A model generated the notes under the pieces. The model was not told where the DNA came from. It saw only the letters and a program-made list of their open reading frames with translations, and searched no databases. From NCBI RefSeq assembly GCF_022414575.1, contig NZ_JADWYQ010000007.1, positions 62,001-126,000 on the forward strand: 64,000 bases of DNA. The letters are read 5' to 3'. The stretch is from Streptomyces sp. MUM 178J (GTDB lineage: Bacteria > Actinomycetota > Actinomycetes > Streptomycetales > Streptomycetaceae). The number at the start of each line of letters is the position of its first letter. The stretch's first letter is position 1. Below, one piece after another: positions 21,756-63,089 of the stretch. Position numbers and translations under genes: made by a program.

Positions 21756-22164
21756 CCGCAGTCCCCCTCCCGGCGGGGGCGGGGGCCGGGCCATGGCGCG
21801 GTGCCCGACCCGTCCGACGCGAACGGCGTTGTCCCACCAGTATCCGGCGCACGCCCGAGGCTCGCTCGCCGCACGCCCGAGGACGGCAAGGTTCCGGGGG
21901 CCGGGGACACTGCTGCGAACGTGTGTGCGACAAGGGCGGCCCTCTCCGTCGACCCGTTCCCGAAACGGGCTGTCATCGGGTTGAACGTTTCTCCCCGGAT
22001 GGGCATGCCGGACCGAGATCCGGTGCGCCCTGCGGATCGCGCCCCCTAGGGGTCTAGTCCACTAGGTGAAGCCGGGTCCCTTGCGCCAATCGGCAGAGTC
22101 CGCTCCGGGCCTGTGCGGCGGCGGTGGTGGCGGTGTCAAGGGCTCGGGCGGCTCGTGGGGGCAT

Positions 22165-22194
22165 TTGGCCGAATACTTGAGCACTCAGTAAAGT
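22165..22194 (+). promoter_or_regulatory. Candidate promoter of the zinc-ribbon SDR gene
   Basis: TTGGCC (22165-22170), 18-bp spacer, TAAAGT (22189-22194), 26 bp before the GTG at 22221. Confidence 0.4.
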
Positions 22195-22220
22195 TTCACT
22201 CTTGGAACTACGGCGTACGA

Positions 22221-23705
22221 GTGACAGAGGAATCGGCATCCGCGATGACGGCGACCAACGAAAGCCCGGCACCGGCGTACGGCCCGGGCATCGACCCTGA
22301 GCGGCTCGCCGTCTGTCTGGGCGTGCTCGAAGAGCTGGACGAGCTGGAGATTGACCACCCCGACGCGGTCGCCGTACGCCGGGCCACCGCGGGCGTCTAC
22401 CGCACCGTGAAGCAGCGCCGCCGCCAGGAGCGCCGGGCGGCCAAGACCGCCCATGACCGGGCGGTCACCGAGGCCACCGCCACCGGCTCCGCCGAGCGCA
22501 TCGACGACGAGACCCAGGGGCTGCTGCCCACCTCCTCGGTCGTCGGGGAGATCGCGGGCATACTCCAGCGCCCCCGTTCCTGCTACATCTGCAAGACCCG
22601 CTACACCGAGGTCGACGCCTTCTACCACCAGCTGTGCCAGAAGTGCGCCGCCGAGAACCGCGCCCGCCGCGACGCCCGCGCCGATCTGACCGGCCGGCGC
22701 GCCCTGCTCACCGGCGGCCGCGCCAAGATCGGCATGTATATCGCGCTGCGGCTGCTGCGCGACGGCGCGCACACCACCGTCACCACCCGCTTCCCCAAGG
22801 ACGCGATCCGCCGCTTCAAGGCGATGCCGGACAGCGACGAGTGGATCCACCGTCTCAAGATCGTCGGCATTGATCTGAGGGACCCGGCCCAGGTCGTCGC
22901 CCTGGCCGACTCGGTGGCCGCCGAGGGGCCGCTGGACGTCCTGATCAACAACGCCGCGCAGACGGTGCGCCGCTCCCAGCAGGCCTACGGCGAGCTGCTC
23001 GCGGCCGAGGCCGCCCCGCTGCCCGCGGGCGAGCTGCCCGCCTCCGAGGTGATCGGCGCCTTCGGCAGCGGCGCGCAGGCGGCGCTGCCCGCCGGCGGCG
23101 GCGAGAAGCTGACCGCCCAGGACGTCGCCGAACTGGCGCTGGTCACCGGCTCCGCATCCCTCGCCAGGATCGAGGCGGGCACCGCCATCGACGCCGGCGG
23201 GCTGGTCCCCGATCTGCATGACACCAACAGCTGGGTCCAGACGGTCTCCGAGGTGGACCCCGTCGAGCTGCTCGAGGTCCAGCTCTGCAACTCCACCGCG
23301 CCGTTCATCCTGATCAGCAGGCTTCGCCCGGCGCTCGCCGCCTCCTCCGCCCGGCGCGCCTACGTCGTCAACGTCTCCGCGATGGAGGGCGTCTTCGGCC
23401 GCGGCTACAAGGGAGCGGGACACCCGCACACGAACATGGCCAAAGCCGCGCTGAACATGCTCACCCGCACCAGCGCCCAGGAGATGTTCGAGACCGACGG
23501 CATCCTGATGACCGCGGTCGACACCGGGTGGATCACCGACGAGCGTCCGCACCCGGACAAGATGCGCCTGGCGGACGCGGGTTTCCACGCTCCGCTCGAT
23601 TTGGTCGACGGGGCGGCCCGCGTCTACGACCCGATCGTACGGGGCGAGTCGGGCGAGGATCTGTACGGCTGCTTCCTCAAGGACTACGCCACCGCCAACT
23701 GGTAA
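22221..23705 (+). CDS. SDR-family oxidoreductase with N-terminal zinc-ribbon region
   Basis: A 494-residue protein. The first 150 residues are helical and contain a four-cysteine cluster CYICKTRYTEVDAFYHQLC followed by QKC, resembling a zinc ribbon. A short-chain dehydrogenase domain follows: RRALLTGGRAKIGMYIALRLL (nucleotide loop), VLINNAAQTVRRS (NNA motif), NVSAMEG and a catalytic-like region with K in HTNMAKAALNML; the usual Tyr of YxxxK is replaced by His-Thr-Asn-Met. It is nearly twice normal SDR length because of the N-terminal part and an insertion near 270-340. GTG 22221 or ATG 22245 may be the start. Substrate unknown. Confidence 0.8.
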   Translation: MTEESASAMTATNESPAPAYGPGIDPERLAVCLGVLEELDELEIDHPDAVAVRRATAGVYRTVKQRRRQERRAAKTAHDRAVTEATATGSAERIDDETQGLLPTSSVVGEIAGILQRPRSCYICKTRYTEVDAFYHQLCQKCAAENRARRDARADLTGRRALLTGGRAKIGMYIALRLLRDGAHTTVTTRFPKDAIRRFKAMPDSDEWIHRLKIVGIDLRDPAQVVALADSVAAEGPLDVLINNAAQTVRRSQQAYGELLAAEAAPLPAGELPASEVIGAFGSGAQAALPAGGGEKLTAQDVAELALVTGSASLARIEAGTAIDAGGLVPDLHDTNSWVQTVSEVDPVELLEVQLCNSTAPFILISRLRPALAASSARRAYVVNVSAMEGVFGRGYKGAGHPHTNMAKAALNMLTRTSAQEMFETDGILMTAVDTGWITDERPHPDKMRLADAGFHAPLDLVDGAARVYDPIVRGESGEDLYGCFLKDYATANW

Positions 23706-50263: not shown

Positions 50264-50268
50264 AGGGC
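50264..50268. repeat. Left target-site duplication AGGGC
   Basis: AGGGC immediately outside the left inverted repeat equals AGGGC at 55918-55922 outside the right one. Five base pairs is the duplication made by Tn3-family transposition. Confidence 0.8.
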
Positions 50269-50320
50269 GGCCCCGTAGTCCTACCTCGGACACGGGGGAG
50301 CAAGTAACCCGCCGGTAGCT
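50269..50320 (+). repeat. Left terminal inverted repeat
   Basis: 52 bp starting GGCCCCGTAGTCC and ending CAAGTAACCC-GC-CGGTAGCT; matches the reverse complement of 55866-55917 at 42 positions. Confidence 0.88.
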
Positions 50321-50393
50321 TTCCGTGGGTCGGATCTCCCGTTTCTCGTCGTCGTGCGCCTCGTTGGGCTGAACGAGCGAATCCCACGGTGGG

Positions 50394-52541
50394 GTGACGA
50401 AATGGGGCGGTGTGCGGCAGGAGTGGTCGCCGGAAGACGTGGTGGCGTACTGGACGCTGGTGGACGGCGACTGGGGCCTGGTGGCGAACAAGACCGGTCC
50501 GACCCGGCTCGGCTTTTGCCTGATGCTCAAGTTCTTCGAGATGGAGGGCCGGTTCCCGGAGTTCATCGAGGAGTTCCCGCAGCCCGCTGTCGAGTACGTC
50601 GCCGGTCTGGTGAAGGTCCCTGCGACTGAGCTTGCGAAGTACGACCTGGCGGGGGCGAAGCGGCACCGTAAGCAGATTCGGGAAGCCCTGCAGTTCCGGC
50701 CTGCGACGCTGGACGACGAGGAGCGGCTGACCGCTTGGCTGGCGGTAGAGGTGTGCCCAGTAGAGCTGGTGGAGGACCGGCAGCGGGAGGCCCTGCTGGT
50801 CGAGTGCCGGGCGAGGAAGATTGAGCCGCCGGGCCGGACCCGGATCGAGAAGGTACTGGTTGCCGCCCGCAACCGGTGGGAGAAGGTGTTCTGCGCCAGG
50901 ACCATCGAGCGCCTGGGCGACATCGGCGCGGCCCGGCTGCTTGCACTGGTCGCGGAGGACAACGAGGACGGTGCCGGCCTGCTGGCCTTGCTCAAGCGCG
51001 ATCCCGGCGCGGTCGGCCTGGACTCGCTGCTGACGGAGATCACCAAGCTGAACGATGTACGCAGACTCGGGCTTCCCGAGGGACTGTTCGCGGACTGCTC
51101 GGAGAAGCTGCTGGCCGCGTGGCGGTCGAGGGCGATCAAGATGTACCCCTCGGACTTCCGGGACACCTCCGAGGACGCCCGGATCACGCTGCTCGCGGCC
51201 CTGTGCTCTTCTCGTCAGGCGGAGATCACTGACGCTCTGGTGGAGCTGCTGGTTGCCCTGGTCCACAAGATCAACGCGCGTGCCGAGCGACGGGTGGAGA
51301 GGCAGCTCACCGCGGAGTTGAAGAAGGTCCGGGGCAAGGAAGGCATCCTCTTCAAGCTCGCCGACGCAGCGATCGGCAAGCCCGACGAGGTGGTACGCGA
51401 GGCCCTGTACCCGGTGGTCGGGGAGAAGACGCTGCGTGACCTGGTCGCGGAGGCGAAGGCGAACGAGAAGGTCTTCAAGGCCAAGGTCCGCACCACCCTG
51501 CGGTCCGTCACCCGGCTGGTCAACGCGACCTTCGCCGCCCGCGACACCGCTTGGTGGGGGCAGGGCAACGCGTGTGCCTCGGACTCGAAGAAGTTCGGGT
51601 CCTGGTCCAGCAACTTCATGACCGAGTACCACGCACGCTACGGCGGCAACGGCGTGATGATCTACTGGCACGTGGAGCGGAAGAACGTCTGTATCTACTC
51701 GCAGCTGAAGTCCTGTTCGTCGTCCGAGGTCGCGGCGATGATCGAGGGACTGCTGCGGCACTGCACGGACGCCGAGATCGAGTCGAACTACGTCGACACA
51801 CACGGCGCGAGCGTGGTCGGGTTCGCCTTCACCGAGCTGCTCAACTTCCGCCTGCTGCCCCGGCTGAAGAACATCGGCAGTATCCGCCTGTACCGCCCGG
51901 ACGACGACCCGCCCGGCTGGCCGGCGCTCGGCGCCTCCCTGACCCGGGCCATCAGGTGGGACCTGATCGAGCAGCAGTACGACCAGATGGTCAAGTACGC
52001 CACTGCGCTCCGGCTGGGGACGGCGGAGGCGGAGCAGGTGCTGCGGCGCTTCACCCGCGGCGGGCCCAAGCACCCCACGTACGCCGCGCTCGAAGAACTC
52101 GGCCGCGCGGTCCGTACGGTCTTCGCCTGCGACTACCTCGCCGCTCCCGGCCTGCGCCGGGAGATCCACGGCGGGCTCCAGGTCGTGGAGAACTGGAACT
52201 CGGCGAACACCGTGCTCCACTACGGCAAGGACGGCGCCCTGACCGGCCCGGACAAGGAACACGCCGAGACCTCTATGCTCGCCCTGCACCTGCTCCAGTC
52301 CGCGCTCGTGCACGTCAACACGCTGCTGCTTCAGCAGGTCCTCGCCGAACCGGCCTGGGCGAAGAAGCTCTCGGACGAGGACCGGCGCGGGCTCACCGCG
52401 CTGTTCTGGTCCAACATCAACCCGTACGGCACCTTCCGCCTGGAGATGGACAAGCGACTCGACCTCGCGCCACTTCTCTCAGTGCCCCGTCCCCGCACCC
52501 CGGCGGACACCTCCGACCAGGCCCTGGCGGAGCCGAGGTGA
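50394..52541 (+). CDS. tnpA: Tn3-family transposase with internal in-frame deletion
   Basis: A 715-residue transposase; family members are usually about 890-1,000. The DUF4158-type N-terminus ([21 protein letters not shown]) and the central region up to [17 protein letters not shown] are normal. The next residues [18 protein letters not shown] belong to the start of the catalytic domain, so about 290 residues are missing in frame. The DDE triad is kept: D397 ([10 protein letters not shown]), D468 (NYVDTHGAS), E599 (VVENWNSAN), with spacings of 71 and 131 close to those of Tn3 (76 and 130). The start is GTG 50394. Activity is doubtful. Confidence 0.88.
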
Positions 52542-52642
52542 CCCCCGCGCCGACGGGCCGGTGCCTGTACCGGCCTTGGGGGCAAACAGGACAGTCGATC
52601 TCGGCGAGATTGACTTGAATGGCGAGAGGACCATGCCGACGC

Positions 52643-52677
52643 CGTGAGGGGCAGCCGGGTGCCGGCTGCCCCTCACG
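52643..52677. terminator. Perfect 16-bp-stem hairpin between tnpA and the ABC operon
   Basis: CGTGAGGGGCAGCCGG (52643-52658) pairs fully with CCGGCTGCCCCTCACG (52662-52677), loop GTG. It lies between convergent genes inside the transposon and can stop both. Confidence 0.85.
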
Positions 52678-52705
52678 GTTACTCCCGTAGTGGGACTGGC
52701 GTCCG

Positions 52706-53716
52706 TCAGGTCACTCGGCGGCGAATCCACCAGGCGCAGAACCCGGTCAGGGCCAGGGCAAGGCCGAGGTAGAGCCCGGTCTCGGCCCATTGAAGGGCCC
52801 AGAAGTTGCCAGCGGGCTGGTACGTCACCTGCTGCTGGTAGCCCAGGGCGCCGAGGTCGGCGACGCAGCGGTCGACCTGCTGCAGGGCGGGCGGGCCCGA
52901 CTCGGTGCGCAGGCAGTCGGCGAAGGACGACGGCACGGAGGCCGGCTGACCGGCGGCGTTCAGCGTCTGCTGGGAGGTGACCCAGGCCCCGGGCACTTCT
53001 TCGAGGTGCGCGACGATCTGCCTGGCGCCGTCCTGGATGCTGATGGGGGCGCCGTCGGGCTCGATCGGCACGGTCGTCCGGTCCGCGGCGGCCAGGTGGG
53101 ACCGGATCCACATCGGCACGACGATCTGGACGGCGGCGTAGAGGGCGAACGTGGTGGCCATCGCGGGCAGGGTGCGGCGGATGACCAGGCCGAGGGCGAC
53201 GCCCAGGACGAAGGCGAAGGCGGCATGGGACATGGGGGCGACACCCCGTGCGGCGAAGGCCACGGGGTCGAGCCGCGGGAAGTACGTGTCCGTCGCGCCG
53301 CCGCCGTTGACAGCCCGGTCGATGGGGCTGCTCCACCAGCTCACCGCGAGGCTGGTCAGTCCGGCCGCGGCCATGGACGCCGCCGCACCGAGGCCCAGCT
53401 TGGTCGCCAGCCAGCGCGTGCGCGTGACGCCCTGGTTCCAGGCGAGGTAGTGGGTGCCGGTCTCCAGTTCACGGGAGATCAGCGGCGCGCCCCAGAACAT
53501 TCCGATGACCGCTGGCACGGCGAGCACGACCAGCAGTCCGGTGTAGTAGAGGGTCTGGTCCGCGCTGGAGACCTGGTCCAACAGGCTGCTGCCGGCCGTC
53601 CGGTAGAGGTCGGCCAGTTGCGGGCCGGTGACCGCGAGGGTGGCGGCGAGGACAGCCACCGCGGCGAACAGCACGGCGGCCTGGGTGCGGAACTGGCGCC
53701 AGGTCAGCCAGATCAT
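52706..53716 (-). CDS. ABC transporter permease (transposon passenger)
   Basis: A 336-residue membrane protein with six predicted helices. The start MIWLTWRQFRTQAAVLFAAVAVLA and GMFWGAPLISRELETGTHYLAWNQGVTRTRWL are typical of ABC-2-like permeases paired with GntR regulators in actinobacteria. A large extracellular loop (about 210-300) contains two cysteines (DCLRTE, DRCVAD). GGAGG lies seven bases before ATG 53716, which overlaps the ATPase stop. Confidence 0.9.
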   Translation of the reverse strand: MIWLTWRQFRTQAAVLFAAVAVLAATLAVTGPQLADLYRTAGSSLLDQVSSADQTLYYTGLLVVLAVPAVIGMFWGAPLISRELETGTHYLAWNQGVTRTRWLATKLGLGAAASMAAAGLTSLAVSWWSSPIDRAVNGGGATDTYFPRLDPVAFAARGVAPMSHAAFAFVLGVALGLVIRRTLPAMATTFALYAAVQIVVPMWIRSHLAAADRTTVPIEPDGAPISIQDGARQIVAHLEEVPGAWVTSQQTLNAAGQPASVPSSFADCLRTESGPPALQQVDRCVADLGALGYQQQVTYQPAGNFWALQWAETGLYLGLALALTGFCAWWIRRRVT

Positions 53717-54609
53717 CGAAGTACCTCCAGTGCAGGCCGGGTGTCGCGTACCGCATCGGCGGGCCGGGTCATGTAGGCCAGGACGATGTCTTCCAGACCG
53801 AGCGGGCTGACGGTCCAGGACGGATCGTGGACCGCGGTGTCGGTGCGCACCAGGAGGGTGGTCTGCCGTTCGGTGTGGCTCGCGGTGATGACGTGCTGAC
53901 CGGCCGGGAGCGTCTCCGGGGCCCGGCGCGGTCCGGTGAGCCGGTGGTGGCAGGCGACCAGGTCGTCGATGTCACCGGCCACCTGCACCCGGGAGTCGAC
54001 CAGGACGATGACGTAGTCGCAGGTCCGCTCCACGTCGGAGACCAGGTGGGAGGAGAGCACGACGCTCAGCTCGTGCTCGGCGACGGCCTCCATCAGGTCC
54101 TGCATGAACTCCCGTCGGGCGAGCGGGTCCAGGGCCGCGACCGGCTCGTCCAGAATCAGCAGTTCCGGGCGCTTGGCGATGCCCAGGGTGAGAGCGAGCT
54201 GCGCGCGCTGGCCGCCGGACAGCTTGCCGGCCCGCTGCTTGGGGTCCAGACCGAGGCGACGGATCCGGTCTCGTGCAACGGCGTCGTCCCAGTTCGGGTT
54301 GAGGCGCTTGCCGAGGTCGAGGTGGTCGGCGACGCTCAGCGCGGCGTAGACCGGGGTGTCCTGGGCGACGAAGCCGACCTTGGCCAGCTGTTCCACACCC
54401 TCGGCAGGTCGGCCGCCGCACACCTCGATGGTGCCGGCCGTCGGGGTCAGCATGCCGGAGGCCAGTTTCAACAAGGTCGACTTGCCGGCGCCGTTGGGGC
54501 CGACCAGGCCCACCACCCGGCCGGCGGGGACGTCCAGATCGCAGTTCTGCAGCGCCCAGCGCTGCTTGTACCTCTTGCCCAGGCCCTGGGCTCGCAAGAC
54601 AGCGCTCAC
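53713..54609 (-). CDS. ABC transporter ATP-binding protein (transposon passenger)
   Basis: A 298-residue ATPase: Walker A GPNGAGKST (about 37), Q-loop FVAQDTP, signature LSGGQRAQLALTLGIAKRPELL, Walker B LLILDEPVAALDP and switch SSHLVSDVERTCDY. The C-terminal extension of about 80 residues is common in drug and bacitracin-type exporters. GTG 54609 overlaps the GntR stop by GTGA. Probably forms an exporter with the next gene. Confidence 0.93.
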   Translation of the reverse strand: MSAVLRAQGLGKRYKQRWALQNCDLDVPAGRVVGLVGPNGAGKSTLLKLASGMLTPTAGTIEVCGGRPAEGVEQLAKVGFVAQDTPVYAALSVADHLDLGKRLNPNWDDAVARDRIRRLGLDPKQRAGKLSGGQRAQLALTLGIAKRPELLILDEPVAALDPLARREFMQDLMEAVAEHELSVVLSSHLVSDVERTCDYVIVLVDSRVQVAGDIDDLVACHHRLTGPRRAPETLPAGQHVITASHTERQTTLLVRTDTAVHDPSWTVSPLGLEDIVLAYMTRPADAVRDTRPALEVLR

Positions 54610-55010
54610 GCTACGTCCTCTCCGGCGGCGTTACGAAACGTGCTCACGAACAGCGCCTCAATGCTCTCCTCGTCGAGCCCGGCCAGGCGGGCCTTGGTCA
54701 GCCAGCGCTGCAGCTCCTTGCGCAGCGGTCCCTGCGCGGCGAGCGTGCCGTCGGCCAGCGTCCGGGTCACGAACGTCCCGACGCCGGGACGGGCGGCCAC
54801 CAGGCCGTCGTGCTCCAGCTCCCGGTACGCCTTGAGCACCGTGTTCGGGTTGACCGCCATCTGCTTCGCCACGTCCTTGACCGTCGGCAGCCGGTCACCT
54901 TCCTTCAGCAGGCCCAGGCGCAGTGCGTGCCGAACCTGCTGGACCAGCTGCTGGTACGGGGACAGGCCGGACCGGCTGTTCAGGTGGAACTCAATCACCG
55001 GTTCCTCCAT
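54606..55010 (-). CDS. GntR-family regulator, YtrA subfamily (transposon passenger)
   Basis: A 134-residue repressor with only the winged helix and a short tail. The domain runs PYQQLVQQVRHALRLGLLKEGDRLPTVKDVAKQMAVNPNTVLKAYRELEHDGLVAARPGVGTFV. The short effector part (LRKELQRWLTKARLAGLDEESIEALF) marks the YtrA subfamily, which controls linked ABC transporters, often in response to cell-wall-active antibiotics. ATG 55010 is the first base pairs after a very short leader. Confidence 0.92.
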   Translation of the reverse strand: MEEPVIEFHLNSRSGLSPYQQLVQQVRHALRLGLLKEGDRLPTVKDVAKQMAVNPNTVLKAYRELEHDGLVAARPGVGTFVTRTLADGTLAAQGPLRKELQRWLTKARLAGLDEESIEALFVSTFRNAAGEDVA

Positions 55011-55058
55011 TTATCTAGTTGCCTAGCACTATAGCTCTCTGCATCAATCATTTGGCAA
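55011..55058 (-). promoter_or_regulatory. Promoter/operator of the GntR-ABC operon
   Basis: On the minus strand TATAGT (55033-55028) is an excellent -10; TTGCCA (55058-55053) lies 19 bp upstream. Around and after the -10 is the imperfect dyad TAGTGC-TAG-GCAACTA (55032-55017), a likely autoregulatory GntR operator. Confidence 0.55.
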
Positions 55059-55261
55059 GGCGTGCGCTGCGAGTGCCAGCCGTCCAGCACCTACAGGGGC
55101 CAGCCGCGCATGGTTGGCGCTTGCCAGACCTCGCTCGGGTGTCGAGAAACGACCGTCTGTCGACACTCAGACCCGTGATCGCAAACCCGCAGGTGGGCAC
55201 TGTCGGCAACTCGCGTCGGAAATCAACGTCGGTGAACGGTCCCACCGCTAGATTCCGACAC
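55059..55261. other. Candidate res region of the transposon
   Basis: A 200-bp gene-free stretch next to the resolvase gene. It contains TGTCGA...CGTCTGTCGACA (55140-55165) and further TGTCGG/CGTCGG motifs to about 55230. Tn3 res sites lie here and consist of several dyads of this size. TAGATT (55249-55254) lies seven bases before the resolvase ATG, a leaderless arrangement. Confidence 0.45.
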
Positions 55262-55867
55262 ATGCTCATCGGCTATGCGCGGGTCTCCACCGCCGACCAG
55301 AACCCCGACCACCAGATCGACGCACTGCTGCGAGCCGGCGTCGCCCGCGACCACATCCACGTCGACAAGGCGAGCGGCGCGAAGGCCTCCCGCCCGAAGC
55401 TCGACCTCGTCATGCAGCTGCTGCGCGAGGGAGACACGCTGAAGGTCACCCGGCTCGACCGGCTCTCCCGCTCCGTGCTGCATCTGGTGACCCTCGGCGC
55501 CGAGCTGCGCGAGCGCGGGATCGGGCTGCACGTCATCGAGCAGGGCATCGACACCTCCACGATGGAGGGCAGGGCGATGTTCGGGATGCTGTCCGTACTC
55601 GCCGAGCTCCAGCGCGAGCTGATCGTGGCGAACACCAACGACGGGCTCGCCTCTGCACGGGCCCGCGGCCGGGTCGGCGGGCGCCGGCCGCGCCTCACTG
55701 AGGACCAGGCCATGCTCGCCCAACGCCTCTACGACGAGCGAGAGAAGACCGTCCAGCAGATCGCCGACATGTTCGGCGTGCCCCGCTCCACGGTGTACGG
55801 GCACCTCGACAAGACTAAGACCGTCCCACGCCAACCGAAGAAGAGCACGGTCACGAAGCCGAGATAG
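55262..55867 (+). CDS. tnpR: Serine site-specific recombinase (resolvase)
   Basis: A 201-residue small serine resolvase. The catalytic Ser is in IGYARVSTADQ (S10). LKVTRLDRLSRSVLHLV carries the conserved Arg pair, MEGRAMFGMLSVLAELQRELI the E helix. The C-terminal helix-turn-helix is VQQIADMFGVPRSTVYGHL. It resolves cointegrates formed by Tn3 transposition. The last two bases of its stop overlap the right inverted repeat. Confidence 0.94.
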   Translation: MLIGYARVSTADQNPDHQIDALLRAGVARDHIHVDKASGAKASRPKLDLVMQLLREGDTLKVTRLDRLSRSVLHLVTLGAELRERGIGLHVIEQGIDTSTMEGRAMFGMLSVLAELQRELIVANTNDGLASARARGRVGGRRPRLTEDQAMLAQRLYDEREKTVQQIADMFGVPRSTVYGHLDKTKTVPRQPKKSTVTKPR

Positions 55868-55917
55868 CTACCGATGGGTTACTTGTTCCCTGGTGTCCGG
55901 GCTGGGACTCCAGGGCC
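55866..55917 (-). repeat. Right terminal inverted repeat
   Basis: 52 bp; its reverse complement starts GGCCCTGGAGTCCC and ends CGGTAGCT, matching the left repeat at 42 of 52 positions. Confidence 0.88.
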
Positions 55918-55922
55918 AGGGC
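55918..55922. repeat. Right target-site duplication AGGGC
   Basis: Equals the 5 bp at 50264-50268. Removing the element and one copy restores a continuous GCGGC-AGGGC-GGCAGCTG sequence. Confidence 0.8.
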
Positions 55923-60686: not shown

Positions 60687-63089
60687 CTACCGCCGAGCCC
60701 GCGCCAGGTACCCGGCCGTCCGGCTTCCCTCCGCCCCCGCGACCTCCCCCGGCCGCCCCGCCGCCACGATCCGTCCTCCCGCGTCGCCGCCGCCGGGGCC
60801 GAGGTCGATCACCCAGTCCGCGCCGGCCACCACGTCCATGTCGTGCTCGACCACGACGACCGTGGACCCCGTGTCCACCAGCCCGTGCAGCTGCCGCAGC
60901 AGCACCTCCACATCGGCCGGGTGCAGCCCGGTCGTCGGCTCGTCCAGGATGTACAGGGTGCAGCCCCGCCGCACCCGCTGCAGCTCGCCCGCCAGTTTGA
61001 TGCGCTGTGCCTCGCCGCCCGACAGCTCCGTCGCGGGCTGTCCGAGCCGGAGATAGCCGAGTCCCACGTCCAGCAGGGTGCGCAGACTCCGCTGCGCCGC
61101 GGGCACCTCCCGGAAGAAGTCCGCGGCCGCCTCCACGGTCAGATCGAGCACCTCGGCGATGTTCCTGCCGCGGTACCGCACCGCGAGCGTCGCGGAGTTG
61201 TAGCGGCCGCCGGCGCAGTCCTGGCAGGGGGCGTACGTGCTGGGCAGAAAGAGCAGCTCCACGGTGACGAACCCCTCGCCCTGGCAGGTCTCACAGCGGC
61301 CGCCGGCCACGTTGAAGGAGAACCGCCCCGCCTTGTACCCCCGCTCCCGCGCCGCCTTTGTCGCCGCGAACAGCTTGCGCACGACGTCGAACAGCCCGGT
61401 GTACGTCGCCAGGTTGGACCGCGGGGTACGGCCGATCGGCCGCTGGTCGACCTGGACCAGCCGGTCGACCGCCGACAGCCCTTCGGCGGACGCGCAGTCC
61501 GCCTGCCCCGTCCCGGCGGCGCCGGACGCCACCGCACCCGCGAGCACCTGGCTCGCCAGCGTCGACTTCCCCGACCCCGACACGCCGGTCACCGCCGTGA
61601 ACACCCCGAGCGGGAAGTCCACATCCACCCCGCGCAGATTGTGCCGGCGCACCCCGCGCAGCCGCAGCCACCCCGAGGGCGTCCGCTGCTCCCGCGCCCC
61701 GCCCTGAAGCGGGCCGAACAGAAAGCGGCGGGTGGCCGACTCCGACACGGCCGCGAGCTCCGCCACGGGACCGCTGTGCAGCACGCGGCCGCCGTGTTCG
61801 CCCGCCCGCGGGCCCACGTCCACCAGCCAGTCCGCGCCGCGGACCACATCGAGATGATGCTCCACGACGAACACCGTGTTGCCCGCGGCCTTCAGCCTGC
61901 CCAGCACCGTCAGCAGCGCCTCGGTGTCCGCCGGATGCAGCCCGGCCGACGGCTCGTCCAGGACGTACACCACCCCGAACAGACCGGACTTGAGCTGGGT
62001 GGCCAGCCGCAGCCGCTGCAGCTCTCCGCTGGAGAGCGTGGGCGCCGGGCGGTCCAGGCTCAGATAGCCGAGACCCAGTTCGGCGACCGTGCCGATCCGC
62101 GTCAGCAGATCGGCGGTGAGCACGCGGGCGCTCTCGCCGCCGGCGCCGTCCCGGTGAGAGTCGAGCACGTCCGCCAGCGCGGCGAGCGGAAGCGCCGCCA
62201 GTTCGGCGATCGTGCGGCCCGCGAACGTCACCGCGAGCGCCTCGGGCCGCAGCCTGCTGCCCCCGCACTCTCCGCACGGCGTACTCCGGAGAAACCGCTC
62301 GGCCCTGGCGCGCAGCGTCTGGCTCCTGGAATCGGAGAAGGTGTGCAGCACATAGCGCCGGGCGCTCGTGTACGTGCCCTGGTACGGACGCTGGATCCGG
62401 CCAGCCTCCCGCACCGGATGCACCGTGACGACCGGCTGTTCGTCGGTGAACAGGATCCATTCCCGGTCGCGCGCCGGCAGCTCCCGCCAGGGCCGGTCGA
62501 CGTCATGGCCGAGGGCGTCCAGGACGTCCCGCAGGTTCTTGCCCTGCCAGGCCCCCGGCCAGGCCGCGATGGCGCCCTCGCGGATCGACAGCGACGGATC
62601 GGGCACCAGCAGTTCCTCCGTGGTGCGGTGCACCACGCCGAGACCGTGGCACGCCGGGCACGCCCCCGCGGCCGTGTTCGGCGAGAAGGCGTCCGAGTCG
62701 AGCCGGGCCGCGCCCGCCGGATACTCGCCCGCCCGGGAGAACAGCATGCGCAGCGAGTTGGACAGAGCGGTGACGGTGCCCACCGAGGAGCGCGAGCCGG
62801 GGGCCGAACGCCGCTGTTCCAGCGAGACCGCCGGCGGCAGCCCCGAGATGTCGCCGACCTTGGGCGCGCCCACCTGGTGGATCAGCCGGCGGGCGTACGG
62901 GGCGACCGACTCAAAGTAGCGCCGCTGCGCCTCCGCGTAGATCGTGCCGAAAGCGAGGGACGACTTCCCGGACCCGGAGACTCCGGTGAACACGACGAGG
63001 GCGTCGCGCGGAATGTCCACATCGACACCGCGGAGATTGTGCTCGCGTGCGCCGCGCACTCGCACGAAGGGGTCATGAGGATGGTGCAT
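60687..63089 (-). CDS. UvrA2-like (class II) excinuclease ATPase
   Basis: An 800-residue UvrA-family protein, shorter than UvrA (about 950-1,000). Walker A motifs [23 protein letters not shown] and [15 protein letters not shown] are intact, as are zinc modules [18 protein letters not shown] and [15 protein letters not shown]. The ABC signature of the first half is [15 protein letters not shown] (SSGE instead of SGGE), the second [15 protein letters not shown]. The UvrB-binding region is absent. Such proteins (DrrC-like) protect against DNA-binding drugs. ATG 63089 lies inside the palindrome GATGGTGC-N5-GCACCATC. TAGGAT eight bases upstream suggests leaderless expression. Confidence 0.93.

Follow-up and report, generated by a model that had tools for sequence, protein, structure and literature searches.

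A 5,649-bp unit transposon of the Tn3 family lies in a stretch of 64,000 nucleotides from Streptomyces sp. MUM 178J (GCF_022414575.1, NZ_JADWYQ010000007.1, positions 62,001–126,000), which we call the window and to which all coordinates refer. We conclude that this element (50269–55917) very probably derives from a mobile Tn3-family carrier but is itself stranded and non-autonomous, with cargo consisting of an autoregulated YtrA-type operon for an ATP-binding cassette (ABC) transporter. Among the matches listed in searches of the open-access literature, there was no description of this transposon.

Boundaries and Layout of the Element

The two terminal inverted repeats (IRL, 50269–50323, + strand; IRR, 55863–55917, − strand) are identical at 44 of 55 positions and at 42 of the outermost 52. 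Based on base composition, such an end pair is expected by chance 2.6 × 10−7 times per 6.6-kb stretch and 2.4 × 10−5 times per whole window. The ends are bordered by a perfect target-site duplication, AGGGC (50264–50268 and 55918–55922), and the flanks mismatch when compared at 4, 6 or 7 bp. A preliminary description of this DNA had proposed a Tn3-family unit transposon with exact boundaries and a YtrA-type GntR/ABC cassette as cargo. Our analysis reproduced the ends and the duplication, and the cargo was confirmed by Pfam GntR and ABC_tran matches in overlapping open reading frames (ORFs) ordered gntR–ATPase–permease. What that description had overlooked is an internal deletion in the transposase.

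From left to right, the element contains tnpA (+), the permease/ATPase/GntR cassette (−), a res region, and a serine resolvase gene (+). The tnpA gene (50394–52541, 715 amino acids, aa) carries Pfam DUF4158 in its N-terminal part followed by DDE_Tnp_Tn3, and its product scores 536.8 bits with NCBIfam transpos_Tn3 (cut-off 500). The resolvase gene tnpR (55262–55867, 201 aa) has the Pfam domains Resolvase and HTH_7 (PF00239/PF02796). It is preceded by a conserved res-like region (55137–55261, + strand), recognized in an alignment of seven elements with four cargo types, whose site I, GTGTCGAGAAACGACCGTCTGTCGACAC, starts at about 55139. Together they would be expected to carry out resolution. A 17-bp perfect hairpin (52642–52678; arms 52642–52658 and 52662–52678) between the convergent tnpA and permease genes is probably a terminator.

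The Shortened Transposase

We compared the window TnpA with Tn4430 TnpA (1,014 aa; structures 7qd4–7qd8, PMC9579193) and with the full-length TnpA (1,002 aa) of a sibling element at locus L028 of genome G268. Alignment of the window protein is confined to Tn4430 residues 25–322 and 650–966, whereas the L028 protein aligns to residues 25–966 with no such break. The window and L028 proteins are 97% identical at aligned positions; the exceptions are one internal gap of 285 residues and two residues at the start. At the DNA level, the gap is an in-frame deletion of 855 bp with its junction between 51506 and 51507 (feature 51504–51507, + strand; the 2 bp common to both sides leave that ambiguity). 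Counting from the L028/Tn4430 alignment, the lost segment corresponds to about residues 382–653 of Tn4430, including K560, K564, and R635, which are reported to contact the transposon end in the available part of PMC9579193. Residues D397, D468, and E599, aligned to the Tn4430 catalytic triad D679, D751, and E881, are retained. With 715 aa, the protein falls below the full-length range of about 950–1000 aa for autonomous Tn3 members.

No second Tn3 transposase was found in the source genome, where a single Tn3 DDE domain was detected (127-contig draft, 99.99% complete). A search of the same genome with IRL returned IRL alone; this search was insensitive, because the IRR of the same element was missing from its matches. 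Among 392 genomes of the genus, the exact deletion junction occurred in the source genome only, and seven others had chance-like matches with two mismatches. The idea that the deletion is a widespread variant was therefore rejected. With 285 internal residues of TnpA gone and no further Tn3 transposase detected in the source genome, the window copy is filed as a non-autonomous member and is probably stranded, that is, unable to move by itself. For the same reasons, the earlier view of a working transposon at this site was not borne out.

Sibling Elements with the Same Cargo

Two siblings carry the same cassette, namely L028 and L049 (S. griseus NCTC13033). Each is 6,504 bp long (5,649 + 855) and 94–95% identical to the window element. 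They are located at other sites and have their own 5-bp target duplications, GAGTC for L028 and GTGAC for L049. This result agrees with the earlier proposal that the unit moves or has moved. Moreover, the lysR gene that adjoins the window insertion is only 82% identical in G268, against 94–95% for the transposon unit, which speaks for transfer.

Identity is uneven along the element. In L028, the end of tnpR and the right repeat (window 55660–55917) are about 77–83% like the window, and those of L049 are 95–97% like it, a pattern of patchy ancestry. The 3′ part of tnpA (window 51507–52561) is 97–100% identical to L049 and the 5′ part 93–97%, a possible sign of recombination between elements. 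A simple exchange of arms at res between the window element and L028 is not claimed, given that L028 diverges most from about 55660, which is inside tnpR.

Elements with Other Cargo and the Slot at res Site I

Four further complete elements (L038, L147, L039, and L148) have the same ends, tnpA, and res-tnpR, and carry different cargo. In L038 and L147 the cargo is a module with a SUKH-domain gene, 92% identical across 2,037 bp; for L038 the SUKH assignment was made via a PADLOC match together with the similarity to L147. Members of the SUKH family are frequently associated with toxin immunity. The cargo proteins of both elements match the PADLOC candidate family PDC-M40A. L039 carries an ArsR-type HTH gene, AHSA1, DUF899, and one further ORF, and L148 carries genes for MarR, a questin-oxidase-like protein, and an alpha/beta hydrolase. 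The target duplications are GTGTC for L038 and GGGTC for L148; L039 has 4 of 5 bp matching, and L147 has only a 4-bp ATTC repeat. The longest tnpA frame is open in L028, L038, and L147 (1,026–1,029 aa) and is interrupted in L049 (634 aa), L039 (493 aa), and L148 (881 aa).

Alignment of the seven elements showed that similarity between differing cargo types begins at res site I, GTGTCG...CGACAC. The cargo slot, as located by these alignments, extends from the tnpA stop codon to res site I. Module exchange between Tn3 transposons at res site I has been published (PMC7157771). The borders seen here suggest that cargo has been exchanged at res site I in this group too.

Three other observations concern the relatives of these elements. 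In L039 (2133–8735), the inner res region seems to run in the opposite orientation to that of the other elements, and the target duplication of L039 is imperfect. L046 (4625–9591) has end and resolvase matches and two internal tnpA losses by alignment, a further case of transposase decay. Two tnpA relatives (G013:C1, 13257–13833 and 9160455–9161031) lie in opposite orientation, one close to each end of a genome of about 9.2 Mb assembled as a single contig.

The Insertion Site

The element is flanked by a GGDEF/EAL gene on one side and a lysR gene on the other. We fetched 16 relatives for comparison, comprising 15 of the 16 best matches in the lysR list (G114 was skipped) and G268. Both genes were found in all 16, with a spacing of 19–365 bp in ten and 0.7–2.8 kb in six; in L135 the lysR match is spread across a longer stretch. 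At E = 1 × 10−5, no transposon sequence was detected between the two genes in any of the 16. Thus, sites without the transposon exist in relatives (16/16), as the preliminary description had anticipated, at the level of gene order and not of bases, because the intergenic bases were unmatched. None of the 16 showed the case named there as contrary evidence, namely the cassette at this position with no transposon ends around it. A strict search for the empty site (100 genomes, limit 1 × 10−95) returned the source genome alone.

The Transporter Cassette

To describe the cassette, we used 31 other copies, all 85% identical or more at the nucleotide level (25 named loci, L048–L070, L082, and L098; L028, L029, and L036; and the plasmid copies L144–L146). 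The duplicate locus L031 was left out, and with the window copy the set contains 32. All three ORFs are full length in 28 of the 32, and the ratios of non-synonymous to synonymous substitution (dN/dS) range from 0.04 to 0.51 against the 12 copies compared.

The gntR gene (54606–54998, − strand; Pfam GntR) is the first of the three overlapping ORFs, an arrangement that suggests co-transcription. It probably begins at GTG 54998, which in our reading of the sequence is preceded by GGAGG, rather than at ATG 55010, which a plain ORF call takes. The protein would then have 130 aa (134 aa from ATG 55010). Counted in the 134-aa reading, its GntR domain extends to residue 81, which fits the size of the YtrA subfamily, for which 120–130 aa and a short C-terminal domain of about 50 aa are given in the consulted part of PMC6746942. 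Upstream of gntR, the conserved block CTAnAGTnCTAGNNNNCTAG (55009–55034, − strand) is a putative promoter/operator region and would point to autoregulation by GntR. The full motif occurs in 29 of the 32 copies and the CTAGN4CTAG core in 30, and the block is shorter than the typical YtrA operator of 24 bp. Elsewhere in the window, three CTAG boxes 8 bp apart (22046–22065) lie upstream of a 530-aa ORF (22113–23705).

The ATPase (53713–54609, − strand, 298 aa) has a Pfam ABC_tran domain, and Rv1218c, part of a mycobacterial efflux system, is its first bacterial match among solved chains. The third gene (52706–53716, − strand, 336 aa) encodes a putative ABC-2-type membrane permease. Its Pfam match, to ABC2_membrane_2, is sub-threshold. 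Hydropathy analysis gave six or seven hydrophobic stretches, and a search of solved structures by sequence returned no relatives up to E = 1. The final two hydrophobic stretches are separated by a region of strands. The AlphaFold2 model has a predicted local distance difference test (pLDDT) score of 88, and ABC transporter chains are its top structural matches, including the Rv1218c pump and ABCG-type exporters. A defence role of the cassette was considered and rejected: for the ATPase, PADLOC gave ATPase-domain matches (best mad3, 6 × 10−26); those for GntR were weak and of the HTH type (best 0.0017), and the permease had no match.

Distribution of the Cassette and Transposon Remnants

Over about 2.3 kb or more, the cassette was found at 89% identity or higher in 10 of the 392 genus genomes, source genome included. 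One scan of a named collection returned 406 permease relatives; among the 80 that were kept, those outside Streptomycetaceae are 44–55% identical. Outside the transposon parts, one pair of copies has a long common flank (L048/L056, about 3.1 kb). Shorter flank matches (306–550 bp, 68–81%) were found for L029/L069, L051/L146, L052/L058, and L067/L069.

We then examined the surroundings of the 31 other copies. Transposon pieces lie within 1 kb of 13 of them (tnpA side 8, res/tnpR side 11), compared with 0 of 31 on the opposite strand; the debris at L055 and L063 is weak and out of register. The copies can be arranged as a decay series. L028 is intact, L049 is frame-broken, and the window, L058, and L054 have an internally deleted tnpA. 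Partial or degenerate pieces remain at L144–L146, L069, L055, L062, L063, L065, and L057, and 18 copies are traceless. This comparison of copies suggests that transposons of this kind account for at least part of the spread of the cassette in Streptomyces, and that they later decayed around it.

Proposed History and Alternative Explanations

In our proposal, the element belongs to a Tn3-family group found in several Streptomyces, and its slot holds a self-contained operon for the GntR repressor, the ATPase, and the putative ABC-2 permease. Intact members, judging from the family, would form cointegrates through TnpA and resolve them through TnpR and res. As the ends show, an intact ancestor or a helper delivered this copy between the GGDEF/EAL and lysR genes, creating the AGGGC duplication. 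The 285 tnpA codons may have been lost after insertion, or before it with help in trans. By alignment, the lost segment is the counterpart of DNA-contacting parts of Tn4430 TnpA that precede the catalytic domain. The copy is now most likely immobile, and its intact transporter operon is presumably under GntR control.

Several results weigh against this account. Only one of the two cassette-bearing siblings (L028) has an open tnpA frame, since that of L049 is broken. The 127-contig draft leaves room for a helper on missing DNA or for misassembly where the deletion lies. In the same species, no strain was found that has the exact empty site, and the lysR matches listed begin past the intergenic bases. 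The outer termini start with GGCC in 14 of the 14 ends of the seven elements (GGCCC in 13) and not with the GGGGT box of Tn4430, an outer end box called highly conserved in the consulted part of the Tn4430 paper (PMC9579193). For the permease, Foldseek with the model gave no match under E = 0.001. A control with swapped sides gave six tnpA-probe matches on the right, which we attribute to the inverted right end, and one unexplained res/tnpR-probe match on the left. The copies marked by transposon pieces do not form one clade: they require 8 label changes on the cassette tree, against a mean of 10.3 after shuffling, and 46 of 500 shuffles gave a count that low, which means that the label is barely clustered. 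The tree itself is shallow and poorly supported, and fits a history with or without a single capture by one transposon. Finally, 18 of the 31 other copies have no transposon trace, and other routes of spread are therefore possible.

Those traceless copies, and the permease relatives (406 in the collection scan; among the 80 kept, 44–55% identity outside Streptomycetaceae), would suit a cassette that is an ordinary, independently transferred Streptomyces operon, whose capture by this transposon was a one-off accident unrelated to its spread. We regard this as improbable, because two siblings occupy other sites, three plasmid copies retain parts of the transposon, and more copies have eroded parts beside them on the expected strand. 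It is harder still to believe that the shortened TnpA is active, or is a repressor of full-length relatives, in a deliberate reduced form of the element. Its deletion is exactly in frame, and the counterparts of the catalytic triad and the N-terminal domain are kept. However, the part lost includes the residues that contact the transposon end in Tn4430 (PMC9579193), the junction recurs in none of the other genomes among the 392 beyond chance-like matches, other copies have different and larger tnpA losses, and one third of deletions are in frame by chance.

Mobilization of the already shortened element in trans, so that it was non-autonomous on arrival, seems less implausible than either, though still unlikely. 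The AGGGC duplication is perfect despite the broken tnpA, and transposase-less Tn3-family elements known as TIMEs move with help in trans (PMC4133298, consulted in part). Against it, the same deletion occurs in no second genome among the 392, no helper transposase was found in the source genome today, and a deletion after insertion accounts for the same facts. We retain the interpretation of a stranded copy of a mobile carrier.

Function and Antibiotic Tolerance

The operon most likely serves export, or the membrane handling of an envelope-related or foreign compound, and would be released by a ligand or signal acting on GntR. The preliminary description went further and suggested that the cassette may carry antibiotic tolerance. 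The basis for such a claim is analogy with the ytr operon of Bacillus subtilis. That operon is induced by inhibitors of the lipid II cycle (PMC12772383), and the ATPase resembles Rv1218c of the mycobacterial efflux system, with the modelled permease appearing similar to the same pump and to ABCG-type exporters. On the other hand, the available part of the same recent study reports no consistent role of B. subtilis ytr in antibiotic survival, leaves its role in adaptation to antibiotic stress unconfirmed, and points instead to the lipid II cycle. The cassette sequence gives no substrate. Thus the tolerance claim is unsupported, and we think it rather unlikely that the cassette is an antibiotic-tolerance module.

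Relation to Known Systems and Significance

A Tn3-family unit transposon with such a cassette had been called unusual for Streptomyces, which is partly right. Tn4556 of Streptomyces fradiae, as described in the accessible part of PMC6403206, shows that members of this family with mid-element cargo were already known in the genus. It is 6,625 bp long and makes 5-bp duplications. Its tnpA, with DDE_Tnp_Tn3, is close to one end and its resolvase gene towards the other, and two cargo genes occupy the middle, a layout similar to that of the window element. Compared by description only, it differs in its ends (38 bp with one mismatch) and its cargo (a methyltransferase and an isoprenyl diphosphate transferase). 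The TnpR of Tn4556 contains a phage-integrase domain (PF00589), and res is proposed next to IR-R (PMC6403206), whereas the window element has a serine resolvase with res before the gene.

Like TIMEs and other non-autonomous Tn3 derivatives (PMC4133298), the window copy has Tn3-type ends and appears to lack a working transposase of its own. Unlike them, it retains most of tnpA and carries a transporter cassette, and its movement in trans is hypothetical. In the Tn3 modules exchanged at res (PMC7157771), the borders likewise lie at res site I, but the modules are of the toxin-antitoxin type, and here the cargo is larger and reaches from tnpA to res. The operon resembles the YtrA-type operons described in the parts seen of PMC12772383 and PMC6746942 in combining a short GntR repressor with an ABC transporter, and differs from them in having one ATPase and one permease and in being transposon-borne.

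As a tentative extension, which we hold to be possible but not the likelier outcome, these elements may be Streptomyces-wide plug-in carriers. Whole operons would be exchanged within the slot that runs from tnpA to res site I, travel from species to species, and stay in place when the transposon decays; many scattered "orphan" GntR/ABC operons would then be transposon leavings. In any case, a regulated transporter operon scattered in Streptomyces is tied here to a definable vehicle, of which intact, wounded, and eroded copies can be compared. The group also offers a small test case for the acquisition and exchange of non-resistance cargo at the res site of Tn3-family transposons.

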